Source: a virus. Taken from it: a stretch of 27,328 bases of DNA. Below the pieces are notes generated by a model that saw nothing but the letters and a program-made list of their open reading frames with translations, searched no databases and was not told where the DNA came from. Made by a program: the position numbers and the translations under genes. Positions 4,093-24,541 of the stretch are shown here, in pieces. Location of the stretch: the IMG/VR virus record IMGVR_UViG_3300006750_003312, positions 1 through 27,328 of that record; one strand, written 5' to 3'. Every line of letters begins with the position of its first letter. Position 1 is the stretch's first letter.

Positions 4093-4329
4093 ATGGGAAC
4101 ACGGACTATGAGACAAGTTCAAGCAGGTCATAGGAATTGGCAGAAGGCACAAATCATGGGTTTTATAGCACAAGCGGAGTCTATGATAATGAAGGGGGAG
4201 ACTTTGTATACAAAAGAAGTGAATGAAATAGAAAAGATTCGAAATATAGCAGAAGAGCTTCTTCATTTATGGGAACCATTGATCCCTGATGAGGATGAAG
4301 GTAGACCTCGACAAGGAGATAAAGAATGA
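4093..4329 (+). CDS. Small helical hypothetical protein (78 aa)
   Basis: ATG 4093 directly follows the previous stop. The product is helical, with a basic N-terminus (MGTRTMRQVQAGHRNWQKAQ), an amphipathic central part and an acidic C-terminus (LIPDEDEGRPRQGDKE). The stop overlaps the ATPase start as ATGA (4326-4329). No family is recognised; its position suggests an accessory to the recombination ATPase. Confidence 0.65.
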   Translation: MGTRTMRQVQAGHRNWQKAQIMGFIAQAESMIMKGETLYTKEVNEIEKIRNIAEELLHLWEPLIPDEDEGRPRQGDKE

Positions 4330-5057
4330 GGTTAAAAGATTGGGTAGAGAATCTAGGGATTTACAACAAAGAAGAGAACCCCGCAGTAAGACTGTTGTTA
4401 TACGGTGAACCGGGGGCAGGGAAGACTATGTTTGCTTTGAGCGGACCAAAACCTTTCGTCATAGACACAGAACGAGGGTTGAACACAGCGAATCACATGG
4501 GAGTAACACCCCAGTATCTGTCACTAAGTAAGGAGGATCAGGTATATAAAATCATCTGCGATGTGTTGAATAAAATAAGAGACAAGGAAGATCCATTCGA
4601 GGAACCCCCTGAAACAGTCATCATCGATAGCCTTACAGCGTTGGGGGAAATGATCCTATGGGAAGCTATGAGAAGCCCGGGAGGTACCCGGATGCCAAAA
4701 GACCCCACTAACGACAAGCCTGAGTTTGATGATTGGAACGCTCTCCAGAATCGAATAAAGAAGATCCTTGATATCTTAAAGGACCTATCCTGTCATGTAA
4801 TATGCACCGCGGGAGTTAAGCTAGAAAAAGACGAGATCCGAAACACCTTCGTAGGAAGACCAAACATACTCGGGGGTATAAGAGATGTGATAGGACATTA
4901 TTTTGATGAGTTCTTCTATATGGAACCAAGGGGGAGTGGGGATAAGTTGAAGTATGTAACCTATACCAAACGGCATGAGTATTATGCAGCAAAAAGCAGA
5001 GGGAACAGGCCTGGGAAGATAGAGAACGCAAGTTTCAAAGACTTAGTAACTAGTTAA
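4326..5057 (+). CDS. Sak4/RecA-like recombination ATPase (243 aa)
   Basis: A single P-loop domain of the AAA_24/Sak4 type. Walker A is GEPGAGKT at residues 27-34, preceded by a LLLY strand. Walker B is TVIID at 97-101 (Asp101) followed by SLTALGE. A segment starting FVIDTERG (44-51) is the usual second strand of this family. The length of about 240 residues is normal for these shortened RecA-core proteins. The characterised phage Sak4 is known to promote single-strand annealing with its SSB; here a candidate SSB-like gene is next but one, and a Cas4-like nuclease lies upstream. ATG 4326 overlaps the previous stop. The gene ends at TAA 5055-5057, followed by the tRNA-like region rather than the next gene. 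Confidence 0.85.
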   Translation: MRLKDWVENLGIYNKEENPAVRLLLYGEPGAGKTMFALSGPKPFVIDTERGLNTANHMGVTPQYLSLSKEDQVYKIICDVLNKIRDKEDPFEEPPETVIIDSLTALGEMILWEAMRSPGGTRMPKDPTNDKPEFDDWNALQNRIKKILDILKDLSCHVICTAGVKLEKDEIRNTFVGRPNILGGIRDVIGHYFDEFFYMEPRGSGDKLKYVTYTKRHEYYAAKSRGNRPGKIENASFKDLVTS

Positions 5058-5066
5058 ATGTTACTT

Positions 5067-5166
5067 GCCCATGGCGGGTGCGGGGTTGTACCTACCTCCT
5101 TACCCCCTGTCACCGGAAGCAAACAGCCTCCTGCACCGGAATCGGGTTCGACTCCCGATGTGGGCA
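5067..5166 (+). ncRNA. tRNA-like structure 1 (acceptor and T arm, long helix instead of D/anticodon arms)
   Basis: Pairs read directly: acceptor GCCCATG 5067-5073 with TGTGGGC 5159-5165 (two G-T pairs), discriminator A5166, no encoded CCA. The T arm lies exactly against the acceptor 3' strand: TCGGG 5142-5146 with CCCGA 5154-5158 around the canonical loop TTCGACT 5147-5153. Instead of D and anticodon arms there is one 9-bp helix, 5077-5085 with 5129-5137 (core GGTGC/GCACC plus two G-T pairs), closing a 43-nt pyrimidine-rich loop. I could not fit a normal anticodon arm. The layout recalls tmRNA tRNA-like domains, but the tmRNA 5' consensus is absent. It may be a decayed tRNA, a stable processed RNA, or a novel tRNA mimic. 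Confidence 0.55.
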
Positions 5167-5187
5167 TATCTGATCACCGATCACCTT

Positions 5188-5243
5188 GTACCAGTTAGCA
5201 ACATAACACGGGCTAACATAGGGTTCAGGTCCCTGCTGGTACA
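5188..5243 (+). ncRNA. tRNA-like structure 2 (56 nt, minimal, no anticodon arm)
   Basis: Acceptor GTACCAG 5188-5194 pairs perfectly with CTGGTAC 5236-5242, with A5243 in the discriminator position. One further T-A pair (5187 with 5243) is possible. The T arm abuts the acceptor: TAGGG 5219-5223 with CCCTG 5231-5235, loop TTCAGGT, which keeps TTC but has G where tRNAs have conserved A58. The only other arm is a 5-bp stem TTAGC 5195-5199 with GCTAA 5212-5216, with a 12-nt loop. The result is a closed three-way junction with the same architecture as element 1, 21 nt upstream. At 56 nt it is far too short for a normal tRNA. Confidence 0.5.
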
Positions 5244-5251
5244 TCTCTTAT

Positions 5252-5266
5252 AAAGGCGTTGCCTTT
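5252..5266 (+). promoter_or_regulatory. Short hairpin in the leader of the SSB-like gene
   Basis: AAAGGC (5252-5257), a GTT loop and GCCTTT (5261-5266) make a perfect 6-bp stem, about 20 nt before the ribosome-binding site of the next gene. No T-run follows directly (TTTTT comes 12 nt later at about 5278), so it is a weak terminator at best. It could define the 3' end of the upstream tRNA-like transcript or protect the 5' end of the downstream message. Confidence 0.4.
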
Positions 5267-5296: not shown

Positions 5297-5731
5297 ATGA
5301 GCACAGTTTCAATTTCAGGTCTGAGCGAAGCGAAGGAACGGAGTCCCCTTGATACCGGTATCTATACCCTTGAGGTAGGTGATGATACTAAGGGCATAGT
5401 AAAGGATGATGGGAATATAACCCTACAGGTGCAGAGTGAGGTCATGGAGGGACCAGAGCAGAGAGACGAGAGCCAATCAGAAGGTCGGAAGGTATATGAT
5501 TGGTTTCAAATGACAAACCTGCATTTGCATAGTGATGGTGGGAACTTTGCAAGAGCAAAATTGAATGCTTTTCTACAAGCTAGTGGGGTAGATTTTGATG
5601 AGTCCGCCATAGATGTAGAGGCATTGGCTGAGGATCTGAAGGGATGTAGTTTTATAGCTACTAACAAAGTAAAGAAAAACAAGCTAACCCAGGAACTAGG
5701 GGAGAACTGGAGCAAACACCGAGCTGAATAG
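5297..5731 (+). CDS. Candidate phage single-stranded-DNA-binding (SSB-like) protein (144 aa)
   Basis: The start is chosen at ATG 5297 (MSTVSISGLSE) because CGGAGG at 5283-5288 lies 8 nt upstream; an earlier GTG at 5288 would overlap that site. The N-terminal half reads as beta strands with the pattern SPLDTGIYTLEV...ITLQVQSEVMEG, then WFQMTNLHLHSDGG, then helix NFARAKLNAFLQASGV and a final strand pair with a Lys-rich end. This resembles the DUF669-type proteins that accompany phage recombinases and act as SSB. There is no acidic SSB tail. Position after a Sak4-like ATPase supports the idea. An intrinsic terminator follows, so the recombination operon ends here. Confidence 0.5.
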   Translation: MSTVSISGLSEAKERSPLDTGIYTLEVGDDTKGIVKDDGNITLQVQSEVMEGPEQRDESQSEGRKVYDWFQMTNLHLHSDGGNFARAKLNAFLQASGVDFDESAIDVEALAEDLKGCSFIATNKVKKNKLTQELGENWSKHRAE

Positions 5732-5738
5732 TTAGACC

Positions 5739-5777
5739 GAGGGGGAGTAGGGTAGTACCTGCTCCCTCTTTTTTTAT
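5739..5777 (+). terminator. Intrinsic terminator after the recombination block
   Basis: GAGGG (5739-5743) pairs with CCCTC (5764-5768) and AGTAGG (5746-5751) pairs with CCTGCT (5758-5763, one G-T), with a two-G bulge, followed by TTTTTTT starting at 5769. This is a GC-rich stem plus T-run, 8 nt after the stop of the SSB-like gene. Confidence 0.8.
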
Positions 5778-6076: not shown

Positions 6077-6354
6077 AAGTAAAGAAGGCTGATGTAAATA
6101 GAAGCCATTGGATAACCTCCTTGAGGAGATGCCCAGGGAGTTGTGGAGCGAAGTTGTTTACAAACCTAAAGGGGAGGTTTGAGTGTAGAGAAGTTGGGTG
6201 TGGGTATAAGGATGAGCAAGATATTGAGAGGTATAAAGATTTGGCCTATCCCTCGATACCCCCACCGCCCATAGCGTTGTATGGAAAGAAGAAGATTATG
6301 AGAAGAGAGTATGATGCGGAATGGGCTGATGTGGGAAACCGCACCGAAGGATGA
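6073..6354 (+). CDS. Zinc-ribbon protein with TTG start (93 aa)
   Basis: Cys20 and Cys24 (CPGSC) plus Cys38 and Cys43 (CREVGC) form a clear four-cysteine zinc ribbon. A Pro-rich linker (YPSIPPPPIALYG) and a basic helix follow. The only start that keeps the ribbon intact is TTG 6073, which overlaps the previous stop as TTGA; no in-frame ATG precedes the cysteines. The protein is probably a nucleic-acid-binding accessory. It is in an operon with the HTH gene. Confidence 0.6.
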   Translation: MKVKKADVNRSHWITSLRRCPGSCGAKLFTNLKGRFECREVGCGYKDEQDIERYKDLAYPSIPPPPIALYGKKKIMRREYDAEWADVGNRTEG

Positions 6355-6391
6355 AAGCAACTGAGACATTGAAGGAGATAGATGCAGATAA

Positions 6392-9326: not shown

Positions 9327-11996
9327 ATGCAATTTACAAGATCATTAAGCAAATGCAGTACCTGTCCGTTAGAAGGGAGAAAAAAGGTCCAAGGAATCGG
9401 GAGTATTGGACACAACGGAGTAGTAGCCTTCTATGGTACTGCACCAACAAGGGCAGATGAGGAAAAGGAAGAACCCTTCAACGGGACCTCAGGAACATAC
9501 CTAAACTGGGTATTGCTACATGCAGGTATTGAGAGGAGTAGGCATTGGGTAAGTAATATCCTTCCTTGTAGGCCACCAGAGGGAAACTGGGATAGTTTTG
9601 AAGTCATAGAGGCAATAGAAGCCTGTGGCCCAGGCATAGAGCAGGAATTAAAAGCTCTCGAGAAAGCCGGAGTCAAGGTCATAGTCCCTCTAGGCTGGGA
9701 TGCTGCGAATTACTTTGGCATAACACAAGGGGGGATAGAGAAGACCCGAGGATCGGTATACAAGGTTGGGAATCTATGGGCAGTACCTACCTATCATCCG
9801 AATTATTTCGGAAAAATGAGCAGAAAAAAGGGAGATGACTCGATTCTAGATAAAAAGGTCACATGGGTATCGGATATCCAGAAGGCCATGAAGATAGGAG
9901 AACAAGGCTGGGTACCACCGGAAGAAAACTTTAACCTATTCCCTACTCCGGGAGAGGTAGAAGCCTGGGTGCAGGATGCATTACTAGATGGGGTTGTAGT
10001 TGGGGTGGATATTGAAACCTCAGGACTTAATAGGGAGTACTCAAAGGTCATTGTCATAGGGCTCGCGAGAGATGGGGAGAATGGGATTTCAGTACCGTTT
10101 CTTTCCCAAGGAGGGAAGAGTTATTTTGATTACGACGGTTACTCGAGGGTGCAGCATAGCTTAAATACCCTGTTCAAACAGGGACGGTTGATGTTTCAAA
10201 ATGCCCTATTCGATGTTGGATACCTAAAAGGCAAAGGTTACACCATTAGCTACGAGAATGTAGAGCATGATACCATGTTGCTCCATCACACCATCGTCCC
10301 GGAACAAGCACATAATTTGCAATACATCGTATCTATTTATGGGGATACCCCGGCATGGAAGAGTATCTTCTCCGACCGAGAAGGCCGGGCATTGGATATG
10401 AGTGACGAGGACCTGAGGATATATAATCTACGAGATACCGTAGTGTTACACCAAGTCCTAGGGCCGATGATAGAAGATGCCAAAGAACGAGGGGTGTATG
10501 AGCTATACCAAAACGAAGTCATCCCCCTCTTGGCACCTATCGGGGAAATGATGGAAACAGGCTTAAGGCTAGACACCAAACGGTTAGAGGAAGTGAAAGA
10601 TGAGTATGAGCGAAGGCTCGTTAGATTGGATAAAAAGCTTAGGAGAAGCTCTCTTGGAAAAATCCCCCCCGCCTTTAACTTCGACTCAGCCCATGACATG
10701 CAGTGGCTTGCCTATTCGACACCGCCTAGCAAGTTCAAAAAACTTGAAGCCCTCAAGGAGTATGAGCCAGAAACGTGTACCAAACACACGAAAGATGGCA
10801 AACCTCGTCTACGCAAGAAAGGGACCGCAACGTATGAGAGGCTTGCTGCTCTCAAGGAAATCTCCACAGGAACTCCACACCTTATTATTCCAAAAGGATG
10901 GAAGCCAAGAAAGACTGACAAAGGAGCAGACGGGGCAGATGAGCAAGTTTTCCTCTCTCTTGCCGTCGCCATGGGAAAGCGAAGAACAGACATGGCTAAG
11001 TTCAGAAAACCCAAACAAGCGCATATAGAGGAGTTGAAGGCATATGATAGGCAAGATGCTTGGCTTGAGTTATATCGTGAGTACAGGCAGGTCGGAAAGA
11101 TTCTATCTACCTATACAAGCTACGATACATGGGAGGACGGAAAGGTCCACACGTCATTTATTATCCATGGGACTGCAACTGGGAGGTTATCTTCTCGAGA
11201 TCCAAACTTTCAGAATCTCCCAAAAAAGGACGATGAGGACAGTGTGGGAAAAGAGATCCGTGAGGTATTCACGGCTTCCAAGGGGAAGGTCTTGGTGTCG
11301 TGTGATTATAGCAATCTGGAGGTACGGATCTTAGCCTATACCACCATGGACGCACCCTTGATACGGATGCTAGAGACGGGGGTGAATTTGCATGATGATA
11401 ATGCAAAGACGCTTTTTAACCTAAACGAGAAAGATAAGAAATGGAAACTAGCAAGATCTGCTGCGAAGGTGTTTCAATTCGGGGCCATACAGTACGGAGG
11501 AGGGGATAGGGAGGTGTTTGAGAAGACCAGTATGAAAGCCCCGGCATTAGGGTTGAAGTTTGGAGAGTTTGTCATAGCGAAACAGAGATGGATGGCCGCG
11601 CATCCGGGCTACTCTAGCTGGGCAGCAAAGGTTAAACAACAAGCAATAGACACCCGGATATCAGAAGTCTTCAACGGTAGAAAGAGAGAGCTCATGGGTA
11701 GAGACCGGGATATAGAGAAACAAGCCCTTAATACCCCAATACAAGGAGGAGCAGCAGCAGTCATAAACCGAGCAACGATAGAGATCTATAAGGAGAAACC
11801 GTATAACTGGAGGTTGGTTTTGCAAATACACGATCAGTTAGTTATGGAGGTACCAGAAGGGGATGCCAAAGCCTGTATAGCGTTCATGAAGAAACACATG
11901 GAAGAACCAGTTGTTATTAATGGGGCTATGAGAACCTTCCCGGTAGATACAGAGGTAGGACACAGCCTAGGTACCCTTGAGGAAGTAGAAGTATGA
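9327..11996 (+). CDS. Uracil-DNA glycosylase / 3'-5' exonuclease / family A DNA polymerase fusion (889 aa)
   Basis: Domain 1 (about 1-190) is a family-4-like UDG: Fe-S cysteines 10, 13, 81 and 100, the GTAP motif (37-40; the usual Glu of GE-A/G-PG is Thr38), PFNGTSGTYLN, NILPCRPPEG and VPTYHP (153-158). Domain 2 (about 205-400) is a DEDDy exonuclease: Asp228 and Glu230 (VDIET), Asn292/Asp296, Tyr366/Asp370. Domain 3 is PolA: TGRLSSRDPNFQNLP, motif A Asp660 (SCDYSNLEVR), motif B Arg710, Lys714 and Phe718, motif C His835-Asp836. Motif B reads FGAIQYGGG, one residue longer than the usual FGxxYG. A 60-residue basic insertion lies near 465-525. This is the replicative polymerase. The start is the first possible one after TAG 9321-9323; its ribosome site is weak, so coupling to the gene upstream is likely. 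Confidence 0.93.
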   Translation: MQFTRSLSKCSTCPLEGRKKVQGIGSIGHNGVVAFYGTAPTRADEEKEEPFNGTSGTYLNWVLLHAGIERSRHWVSNILPCRPPEGNWDSFEVIEAIEACGPGIEQELKALEKAGVKVIVPLGWDAANYFGITQGGIEKTRGSVYKVGNLWAVPTYHPNYFGKMSRKKGDDSILDKKVTWVSDIQKAMKIGEQGWVPPEENFNLFPTPGEVEAWVQDALLDGVVVGVDIETSGLNREYSKVIVIGLARDGENGISVPFLSQGGKSYFDYDGYSRVQHSLNTLFKQGRLMFQNALFDVGYLKGKGYTISYENVEHDTMLLHHTIVPEQAHNLQYIVSIYGDTPAWKSIFSDREGRALDMSDEDLRIYNLRDTVVLHQVLGPMIEDAKERGVYELYQNEVIPLLAPIGEMMETGLRLDTKRLEEVKDEYERRLVRLDKKLRRSSLGKIPPAFNFDSAHDMQWLAYSTPPSKFKKLEALKEYEPETCTKHTKDGKPRLRKKGTATYERLAALKEISTGTPHLIIPKGWKPRKTDKGADGADEQVFLSLAVAMGKRRTDMAKFRKPKQAHIEELKAYDRQDAWLELYREYRQVGKILSTYTSYDTWEDGKVHTSFIIHGTATGRLSSRDPNFQNLPKKDDEDSVGKEIREVFTASKGKVLVSCDYSNLEVRILAYTTMDAPLIRMLETGVNLHDDNAKTLFNLNEKDKKWKLARSAAKVFQFGAIQYGGGDREVFEKTSMKAPALGLKFGEFVIAKQRWMAAHPGYSSWAAKVKQQAIDTRISEVFNGRKRELMGRDRDIEKQALNTPIQGGAAAVINRATIEIYKEKPYNWRLVLQIHDQLVMEVPEGDAKACIAFMKKHMEEPVVINGAMRTFPVDTEVGHSLGTLEEVEV

Positions 11997-22673: not shown

Positions 22674-24541
22674 CTTCCCTGTACCTCATCTCCGACGAGA
22701 GCAAAGACAATACCAAAACCTCCAAGAGTATAAGGGGTATGGTTTTCAGCTGCTTGAGGGACTAACCGAAACCTTACATGAGCTCCGGTTATACGAAAGT
22801 TTACTTCATCTTCATCTTGTTCTGCGGGGATGACTAAGGTTCCTAGGTCTTTCCAGTTCTTCCCTTTATCTACAGACCCTGATAGGACTATGTTAAGAGA
22901 ATCATCTGATGCGTTAAGGGGGGATTCTAGTTCCAGACTGAAGCTAGTAAAGGTCTTGGTGATATCAGGGGATTCAAAGTCTAGATCCCCTGTAATCACT
23001 TTACCTGTAGGAACTTGTCCTGTATCTGCATCTAATAACCCGGAGTCGTCTTGGTAATAAAAAAGCCGATCCCCAGAGTTAAAAAATAACTGTTGATTCC
23101 ATGCAACCTCAGTAAGTATCGTATTCCAACTAGCAAAATAGGTACCAAACCCCGGCCAAGTATCAGGAGCGATATTCGCTGAAAGATTATCCCAACTAAT
23201 AGTTTCAAGAATAGTATCTGTTTGGATGAAGTTTGTTTCTCGTACCTCATTTGACCAACCTTTAGTTTTGACATTGAATCGCCATAGCTGGGATATCTGA
23301 TTCCCAGACGTAGGAATGCCAAAGACAACAGTAGAGGTGGAATAATCCGTTACCGCTCTCACTGAAGCTTCAGAAGACACAGTAGCTAGCATGTCCTTAA
23401 CAACCGGTGTCCCTACCGGTTGTACCCCTCTTTGCGACACGAAGTATACGTCATCTTGTCCTATGAAGAAATGACCATCCAGATAGGCGGTTACTGCCTT
23501 GGGAGTTACTAATCCCATTCCTCCTGTTTCAAACTTAGTGAATTGCAGGGGGAGAGAAGGGAGATTACTCTGCTGTCCGAACCAGATAGAATCCGTGAGG
23601 TACGCTATAAGAAACTGACTCATAGGCATTAAACGTCTAACAGCCCCGAAGCCATAGGGGAGTTGTAGAAAATCAGTAGCTGTGAAGGTTCCTAAGTTTC
23701 CTACACCTAGATTACTCCAGGCTATTCGTTGTCGATAGCGTAGATCTATTCCCCCTCCAAGATCATCTTCTGGGTCTCTGATATCTGCGGCCCAAAGCCT
23801 ATCACCATGATAAGCAACAGTATAAGGACACCAGTTGTCGTTATTCAATAACCCCCAGGCATTTGCAGGATTATTAGTAACAGTCTGAATAGGCCTTTGT
23901 CCATCTGCAAAGTAAAGAGTATCATTCACATTAACCGGGGTAGCTATGGCACTTGCTCCAACAGAGCGGTAGATGACATATGTAGCACCAGAGGGTGCAT
24001 TTACTAACGGGGTCTCAAGAACTATATTCGTATCATCCGTTACTGCTGCGATTATGTAGGTTTTTATCGCTACGTCATTAGCATTGGTTTCAGTCGTATC
24101 CCCCGTCTCTCCGGTTACAAATATCCTATCCCCAGCAAGAATCCAATTCTGTCCAGTAGACCAAGAGGTTCCACTGCCTACTAGATCATACGCAGTATCT
24201 CCTTCAGTAACTGTACCAACTTCATAGGTCCAATCTATAGCAGTTCTTGTTCCAGTCCTGATTATATAGATCTTCTTATTATCCATGATCACCGAGTAAG
24301 ACGCACCGGTTACTGCTCGTACCGTCCAAAGCCCCTGAATAGGGGCATAGTCTACTTCCCAAGTACCAAACCGGGAGGTAGCTGGACGACGACGAAGCCC
24401 ATAGGGTTGAGCTATGAACCCGTCGATATCTGTAAATGCCCCATCAGGTAACTGAGTAGAGGGCAGATCATTCCGAATACCTTTATTCAGAGGTCGAATG
24501 AATTTTCTTTGCTTTTTCTCTGGAATAAAGGCATCGGACAT
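22670..24541 (-). CDS. Tail nozzle/hub beta-propeller-like protein, T7 gp12-like by position (623 aa)
   Basis: A long all-beta protein. The N-terminus (FIRPLNKGIRNDLPSTQLPDGAF, given here as FIRPLNKGIRND and PDGAFTDIDGF) matches the start pattern seen in podoviral tail nozzle and P22-like tail hub proteins, which begin by binding the portal/adaptor ring and then build a propeller. Repeated strand units with YGDRLWAA, GHFFIGQDDVYFVSQRGVQPVG and LWRFNVKTKGWSNE are typical propeller blades. The C-terminal part (about 540-620) is an immunoglobulin-like or lectin-like sandwich. No catalytic motif. It precedes the GNAT and ejection proteins, as gp12 precedes gp13-16 in T7. Confidence 0.68.
   Translation of the reverse strand: MSDAFIPEKKQRKFIRPLNKGIRNDLPSTQLPDGAFTDIDGFIAQPYGLRRRPATSRFGTWEVDYAPIQGLWTVRAVTGASYSVIMDNKKIYIIRTGTRTAIDWTYEVGTVTEGDTAYDLVGSGTSWSTGQNWILAGDRIFVTGETGDTTETNANDVAIKTYIIAAVTDDTNIVLETPLVNAPSGATYVIYRSVGASAIATPVNVNDTLYFADGQRPIQTVTNNPANAWGLLNNDNWCPYTVAYHGDRLWAADIRDPEDDLGGGIDLRYRQRIAWSNLGVGNLGTFTATDFLQLPYGFGAVRRLMPMSQFLIAYLTDSIWFGQQSNLPSLPLQFTKFETGGMGLVTPKAVTAYLDGHFFIGQDDVYFVSQRGVQPVGTPVVKDMLATVSSEASVRAVTDYSTSTVVFGIPTSGNQISQLWRFNVKTKGWSNEVRETNFIQTDTILETISWDNLSANIAPDTWPGFGTYFASWNTILTEVAWNQQLFFNSGDRLFYYQDDSGLLDADTGQVPTGKVITGDLDFESPDITKTFTSFSLELESPLNASDDSLNIVLSGSVDKGKNWKDLGTLVIPAEQDEDEVNFRITGAHVRFRLVPQAAENHTPYTLGGFGIVFALVGDEVQGR

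Follow-up and report, generated by a model that had tools for sequence, protein, structure and literature searches.

Two tandem tRNA-like elements without an anticodon arm between the sak4 and ssb genes of a viral contig

Stable tRNA-like RNAs of bacteriophages T4 and T5

Stable tRNA-like RNAs have long been known from bacteriophages T4 and T5, and their purpose was never found; the locus described here adds to the puzzle. The T5 record (AY543070) lists RNA1 (144 nt) and RNA2 (125 nt) as 'tRNA-like stable RNA with unknown functions' and RNA3 (73 nt) as 'putative tRNA-like RNA'. RNA2 is almost end to end an acceptor and T-arm structure (AUUCUAG / 89 nt / GCAGGUUCGAAUCCUGU / CUAGGAU), and RNA3 folds as an acceptor, one hairpin and a T-like arm. 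In T4 the counterpart is RNAC (species 1 RNA, rnaC; 139 nt, NC_000866 70908-71046), which was confirmed as an RNA by Northern blot (PMC9697503) and whose role is unknown (PMC3014915). When the T4 tRNA region was scanned, rnaC showed the same kind of T arm (CCGGG-UUCGAAU-CCCGG). Its outer helix, read from the relatives as CGRUUCG/CGUUYCG, joins the two ends of the RNA; it contains two U-U mismatches in T4 and is fully paired in Yersinia phage fHe-Yen9-01. An internal CGGAACG was considered as the RNAC acceptor and rejected since it is broken in relatives and the outer helix both suits the RNA ends and has a two-sided change.

The initial annotation of the locus studied here had named compensatory base changes in both stems, acceptor and T, as the mark of a real element of this kind. 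In RNAC the check was passed for the outer helix, the substitute hairpin and the T stem (covariation 0.353 vs 0.176 shuffled): over 22 pairs in seven distinct homologues, 89.6% of the cells are paired and 7 pairs are changed on both sides. The homologues of T5 RNA2 agreed in part: pairs changed on both sides occur in their T stem and in one inner helix but not in the acceptor.

Other unannotated structures were seen in such phages. Proteus phage 1 (L018 1400-1532) and Vibrio phage Vp_R1 (L017 1650-1739) each harbor, inside a tRNA array, a tRNA-like element with good acceptor and T arms and an abnormal middle (102 and 59 nt, respectively); both are without tRNA annotation, and ARAGORN calls that of Vp_R1 a tRNA-Ser. 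In T5 RNAX (719 nt), a complete tRNA-sized acceptor and T-arm structure (L114 19434-19504; GCCGACC ... GGTCGGT) with a 40-nt middle is likewise without tRNA annotation.

Two elements in the sak4-ssb gap

The viral contig under study, called here the window (the whole stretch of DNA analysed, 27,328 bases), carries on its plus strand genes for an exonuclease, a Sak4-like annealing ATPase, an SSB-like protein, a UDG-PolA fusion and a primase/helicase-like protein, and on its minus strand long genes that are probably structural. A gap of 239 nt separates the end of the Sak4 gene (stop at 5057) from the beginning of the SSB gene (start at 5297). Both tRNA-like elements fall within it, on the coding strand of the two genes:

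4326-5057, plus strand: upstream gene, Sak4-like single-stranded DNA annealing ATPase (phrog_124, E 6.5e-41; Pfam AAA_24)
5067-5073, plus strand: element 1, acceptor 5' strand GCCCATG, paired with 5159-5165 (scan and pair probabilities)
5074-5141, plus strand: element 1, middle of 68 nt in place of the D and anticodon arms
5142-5158, plus strand: element 1, T arm TCGGG-TTCGACT-CCCGA, with a T loop that matches UUCRANY (scan and pair probabilities)
5159-5165, plus strand: element 1, acceptor 3' strand TGTGGGC, followed by unpaired A5166 at the discriminator position; CCA is not encoded
5188-5194, plus strand: element 2, acceptor 5' strand GTACCAG, with 7 Watson-Crick pairs to 5236-5242
5195-5216, plus strand: element 2, single substitute helix TTAGC / 12-nt loop / GCTAA (5195-5199 with 5212-5216), present in the minimum-energy fold with pair probabilities of 0.76-0.95
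5219-5235, plus strand: element 2, T arm TAGGG-TTCAGGT-CCCTG, where G replaces A58 (scan and pair probabilities)
5236-5242, plus strand: element 2, acceptor 3' strand CTGGTAC, followed by A5243; CCA is not encoded
5297-5731, plus strand: downstream gene, SSB-like protein (phrog_378, E 2.9e-4), in the same order in relatives

Both strands of the window were scanned for T stems of 5 bp that have a TTC loop and run straight into the 3' strand of an acceptor of 7 bp. This returned exactly two structures, 5067-5165 and 5188-5242, which scored 22.9 and 19.6 (weighted pairs plus T-loop consensus). When the window was dinucleotide-shuffled 400 times, scores of 19.5 or more appeared at 0.03 per window and scores of 22.9 or more at 0.0025 per window; two such elements within 200 nt were found in none of the 400, and even one was found in none of 4000 shuffles of the gap. 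The two tandem tRNA-like elements without an anticodon arm reported by the initial annotation, with perfect 7-bp acceptors abutting 5-bp TTC-loop T arms, are thus beyond what shuffling yields. Of its structural reading, both acceptors, both T arms and the fold of element 2 stood, whereas a 9-bp substitute helix in element 1 did not.

The acceptor of element 1 consists of 5 Watson-Crick and 2 G-U pairs, and acceptor and T arm are firm (pair probabilities of 0.89-1.0) except for the seventh acceptor pair, which is near 0. The 9-bp helix (5077-5085/5129-5137) is not favoured, with pair probabilities of 0.00-0.05; the minimum-energy fold has hairpins 5073-5107 and 5113-5139 instead, and forcing the helix with the rest refolded is ~7-8 kcal/mol worse. 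ARAGORN, run with introns and a lowered threshold, called element 1 a 'tRNA-SeC with intron', a call that was rejected since this mode calls every test region. The structure claimed for element 2, with a 5-bp helix and a 12-nt loop, is essentially its minimum-energy fold (-18.2 kcal/mol, z -2.25); its pair probabilities are mostly 0.75-1.0, with 0.37 for the seventh acceptor pair and 0.63 for the first T-stem pair. The A58 that it lacks is near-universal in tRNA T loops. The proposal that the two elements follow one shared design is weak: the helix of element 1 is not favoured, the middles measure 68 and 24 nt, and the only sequence common to both is 6 nt long, at the T loop.

A normal 5-bp/7-nt anticodon arm with U33 is absent from both elements. 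In keeping with the initial annotation, fold analysis, ARAGORN and Rfam gave neither of them a better fold with such an arm, and a search of the window with the tRNA covariance model (RF00005) had no match. At its usual settings ARAGORN reported neither element, nor T4 RNAC; tRNA finders can overlook elements of this type. The best Rfam match in the window was mascRNA-menRNA (RF01684) over 5188-5242, and the two scores of this model (18.7 bits for that match, and 16.0 bits) are both below its gathering cut-off of 42.5. A tmRNA-like nature, which had also been suggested, is excluded as far as ARAGORN (tmRNA search negative) and size (56 and 100 nt) tell.

ARAGORN reports no tRNA in the window, hence no tRNA cluster. 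Of the annotated relatives, BK063670 (vir526, which bears the label of a Methanomicrobiales virus) is the closest, with the same gene order and 38% PolA identity; its genome is circular and 44 kb long, so the contig is probably incomplete and a tRNA cluster may still lie elsewhere in the genome from which it comes. Regarding the host, a strong intrinsic terminator was observed 3' of the SSB-like gene (5739-5770; 13 pairs, then TTTTTATTAT), which is more in line with a bacterial host than with the Methanomicrobiales label that vir526 carries, and the groS gene of vir526 is another bacterial-looking feature at odds with that label. A PolA search of 84,980 genomes for a prophage or host gave two matches, on a 3-kb Bacteroidia MAG contig and a distant Gammaproteobacteria MAG contig. 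With respect to an attP site bearing a tRNA 3' end, no integrase is annotated in the complete vir526 (the window being a fragment), and an att site does not need a paired 5' acceptor strand. The polymerase itself (9327-11996) is a family A DNA polymerase with an N-terminal uracil-DNA-glycosylase domain (Pfam UDG, residues 33-170).

Related viral contigs

Related viral contigs were gathered through PolA alignments, the nearest being G001 (50% PolA identity to the window), G002 (44%) and vir526 (38%). The two elements are absent between sak4 and ssb in G001, G002, vir526/G004, G013, L007 and L010. Neither BLAST against phage records nor exact searching of viral contigs returned a homologue of either element, and their exact 3' ends had no match in the viral contigs. 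Selection on the two elements is therefore hypothetical. T-arm-like pieces 3' of ssb in L010 were considered and form no convincing element. A hairpin, AAAGGCGTTGCCTTT, lies just downstream of element 2 (window 5252-5266) and is also found in G002 (L020, about 6349-6366), so that the elements were either gained in the lineage of the window or lost in the others. This hairpin, upstream of the SSB-like gene, is kept despite the 44% PolA identity, has no T-run directly after it and may be a regulatory or processing site.

The layout scan of 15 contigs (525 kb) gave 9 matches with a score of at least 20, compared with 1.0 in shuffles, and 6 with at least 22, compared with 0.3. Two of the nine are ordinary tRNAs (G007 36861 and G011 22324), and the match at G001 43283 is probably chance. 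Elements matched elsewhere in the related contigs are unrelated to the two of the window and occur singly or in pairs:

G012, 19844-19956 and 20076-20141, minus strand: two odd tRNA-like elements with good acceptor and T arms and abnormal middles, 120 nt apart
G007, 39823-39903: odd tRNA-like element with good acceptor and T arms and an abnormal middle
G011, 23659-23739: odd tRNA-like element with normal D, T and acceptor arms and an abnormal anticodon arm
G005, about 1208-1296: odd tRNA-like element with good acceptor and T arms and an abnormal middle

That the acceptor and T arms of such elements are better kept than the lower half is partly by construction, because the scan selects these arms. 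The comparison of the G005 element with vir526 bore out compensatory change in part: one T-stem pair went from G-C to A-U, but an acceptor pair is lost and the T loop has changed from TTCGACT to TGCAACT, which looks like decay in the vir526 lineage. The ordinary tRNAs of the related contigs score 63.1 and 43 bits. Beside ordinary tRNAs in G011 (L049, about 1050-1200), a tRNA-like stretch carries a ~70-80 nt insertion after its anticodon arm, with acceptor, D and T regions intact. In three relatives the PolA match is split by about 430-830 nt (L010 10299-11131, L026 5471-5904 and L027 3581-4398) at much the same place in the query (about residue 611-633), which suggests that a conserved motif is interrupted there by an intron, an intein or a homing element.

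Interpretation and comparison with known systems

The two elements of the window are best filed with the T4 and T5 RNAs by architecture and not by sequence descent, which was looked for and not seen. In both, the acceptor helix stands directly on a 3' T arm and other hairpins replace the anticodon arm; a location in a tRNA cluster, which is typical of the T4 and T5 members and was not treated as defining, is not found in the window. The layout was already known from T4 and T5, and the pair is a new example in an unrelated phage family. Because these precedents, which the initial annotation had not named, exist, its reading of tRNA-like elements without an anticodon arm gains support. We give about even odds (roughly 0.5) to the elements encoding small RNAs of the kind represented by T5 RNA2 and RNA3 and T4 RNAC, probably derived from tRNAs and released by host tRNA-processing enzymes. 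What is directly observed is how the elements fold, where and on which strand they lie, and the layout that they have in common with the T4 and T5 RNAs; we infer the tRNA origin, transcription, processing and stability of the RNAs and any role after release, including the roles of RNase P substrate, tRNA mimic or bait put forward by the initial annotation. Against this reading stand the lack of homologues, the absence from the same site in the nearest relatives, the missing A58 of element 2, the decay-like changes in the vir526 lineage, the absence of a tRNA cluster from the window and the negative comparison with T4 RNAC by sequence and model.

The elements probably descend from tRNA genes that lost the decoding half and kept the acceptor-T half, the part by which RNase P, the enzymes of 3' end processing and the CCA-adding enzyme recognise their substrates. 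What RNase P measures is the stack of acceptor and T arms (PMC4919913), and in its bacterial form it accepts substrates in which the rest of the tRNA is extensively truncated (PMC4919922); if the host were archaeal, the argument would be weaker, since it rests on the bacterial enzyme. Co-transcribed with the sak4-ssb operon, the elements would be cleaved by RNase P before G5067 and G5188 and trimmed at about A5166 and A5243, with CCA possibly added, so that RNAs of ~100 and ~56 nt would accumulate and the sak4 and ssb messages would be separated.

The main rival, and a serious one with a real though smaller share of the probability, is functionless decay, in which two host-derived tRNA genes suffered deletions or insertions in their lower halves while acceptor and T arms are still intact. 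Absence from the relatives at this site fits a recent arrival, the ordinary tRNAs of the related contigs offer a possible source, the element in the vir526 lineage is losing T-loop and acceptor features, and element 2 is roughly as long as a tRNA would be without its anticodon arm, besides having lost A58. Decay would nonetheless have removed both lower halves and yet left every one of the 24 pairs in the acceptors and T stems of the two elements in standard form; the same split recurs in several independent elements of the family (though the scan selects for it), and two-sided changes are found in the T stem and substitute helices of the T4 and T5 counterparts. That the two are chance foldings of a noncoding gap is scarcely credible: the loosest definition (all G-U allowed) gives 0.82 acceptor and T structures per shuffled window and element 2 is only modest by score alone, yet the shuffles of window and gap described above argue strongly against it.

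As mere mRNA punctuation, the elements could be processing sites comparable to plant mitochondrial t-elements and serve only for cutting the sak4-ssb transcript, the released RNAs being by-products. Their coding-strand position exactly between two genes would suit this, as would the activity of bacterial RNase P on mRNAs and further substrates that are not tRNAs (PMC4919922). One cut, however, does not need two tandem sites, the relatives do without elements between sak4 and ssb, and the family elements elsewhere sit at other places, which makes the proposal improbable. A role as decoys for host tRNA-acting enzymes (tRNA-targeting defences included), safe from anticodon nucleases for want of an anticodon arm, draws on the layout and appears very unlikely, since many tRNA-targeting defences act on the anticodon arm, and a decoy without it would not be bound. 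It is a speculative and rather doubtful extension of the preferred reading, that of released T4/T5-type RNAs, that unrelated phages (T4-like, T5-like and the small UDG-PolA family) keep such RNAs under selection, the acceptor-T core staying fixed while the arms are freely replaced, and put them to one shared use, for instance to occupy or divert the enzymes that handle tRNA during infection.

Other known RNAs are comparable in part. The tRNA-like domain of tmRNA also combines an acceptor and a T arm without an anticodon arm, but the window elements are far too short for a tmRNA, and the tag reading frame and pseudoknots were not seen. MascRNA/menRNA is a ~60-nt tRNA-like RNA with acceptor, T arm and reduced middle, which element 2 matches over its full length, far below the cut-off; it is the product of an animal nuclear lncRNA, and the match implies no common ancestry. 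A covariance model of T4 RNAC had no match in the window and no credible match elsewhere, and no sequence similarity of the window to the T5 RNAs was found. RNAC likewise comprises an acceptor-like outer helix of both ends, a long substitute region with a hairpin and a T arm, but its middle is about 100 nt and it sits in a tRNA cluster. The T5 RNAs also sit in a large tRNA cluster, unlike the pair in the window, and are annotated as stable, whereas the RNAs of the window are predicted from the DNA. T5 RNA2 and RNA3 likewise close the acceptor directly on a 3' T arm, replace the D and anticodon arms by substitute hairpins and occupy a noncoding position between phage genes. That the same arrangement turns up in a phage family unrelated to T4 and T5, where the window has no other tRNA genes, suggests that the layout recurs. 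Element 2, with a single substitute hairpin as in RNA3, is a minimal form of only 56 nt that lends itself to testing.
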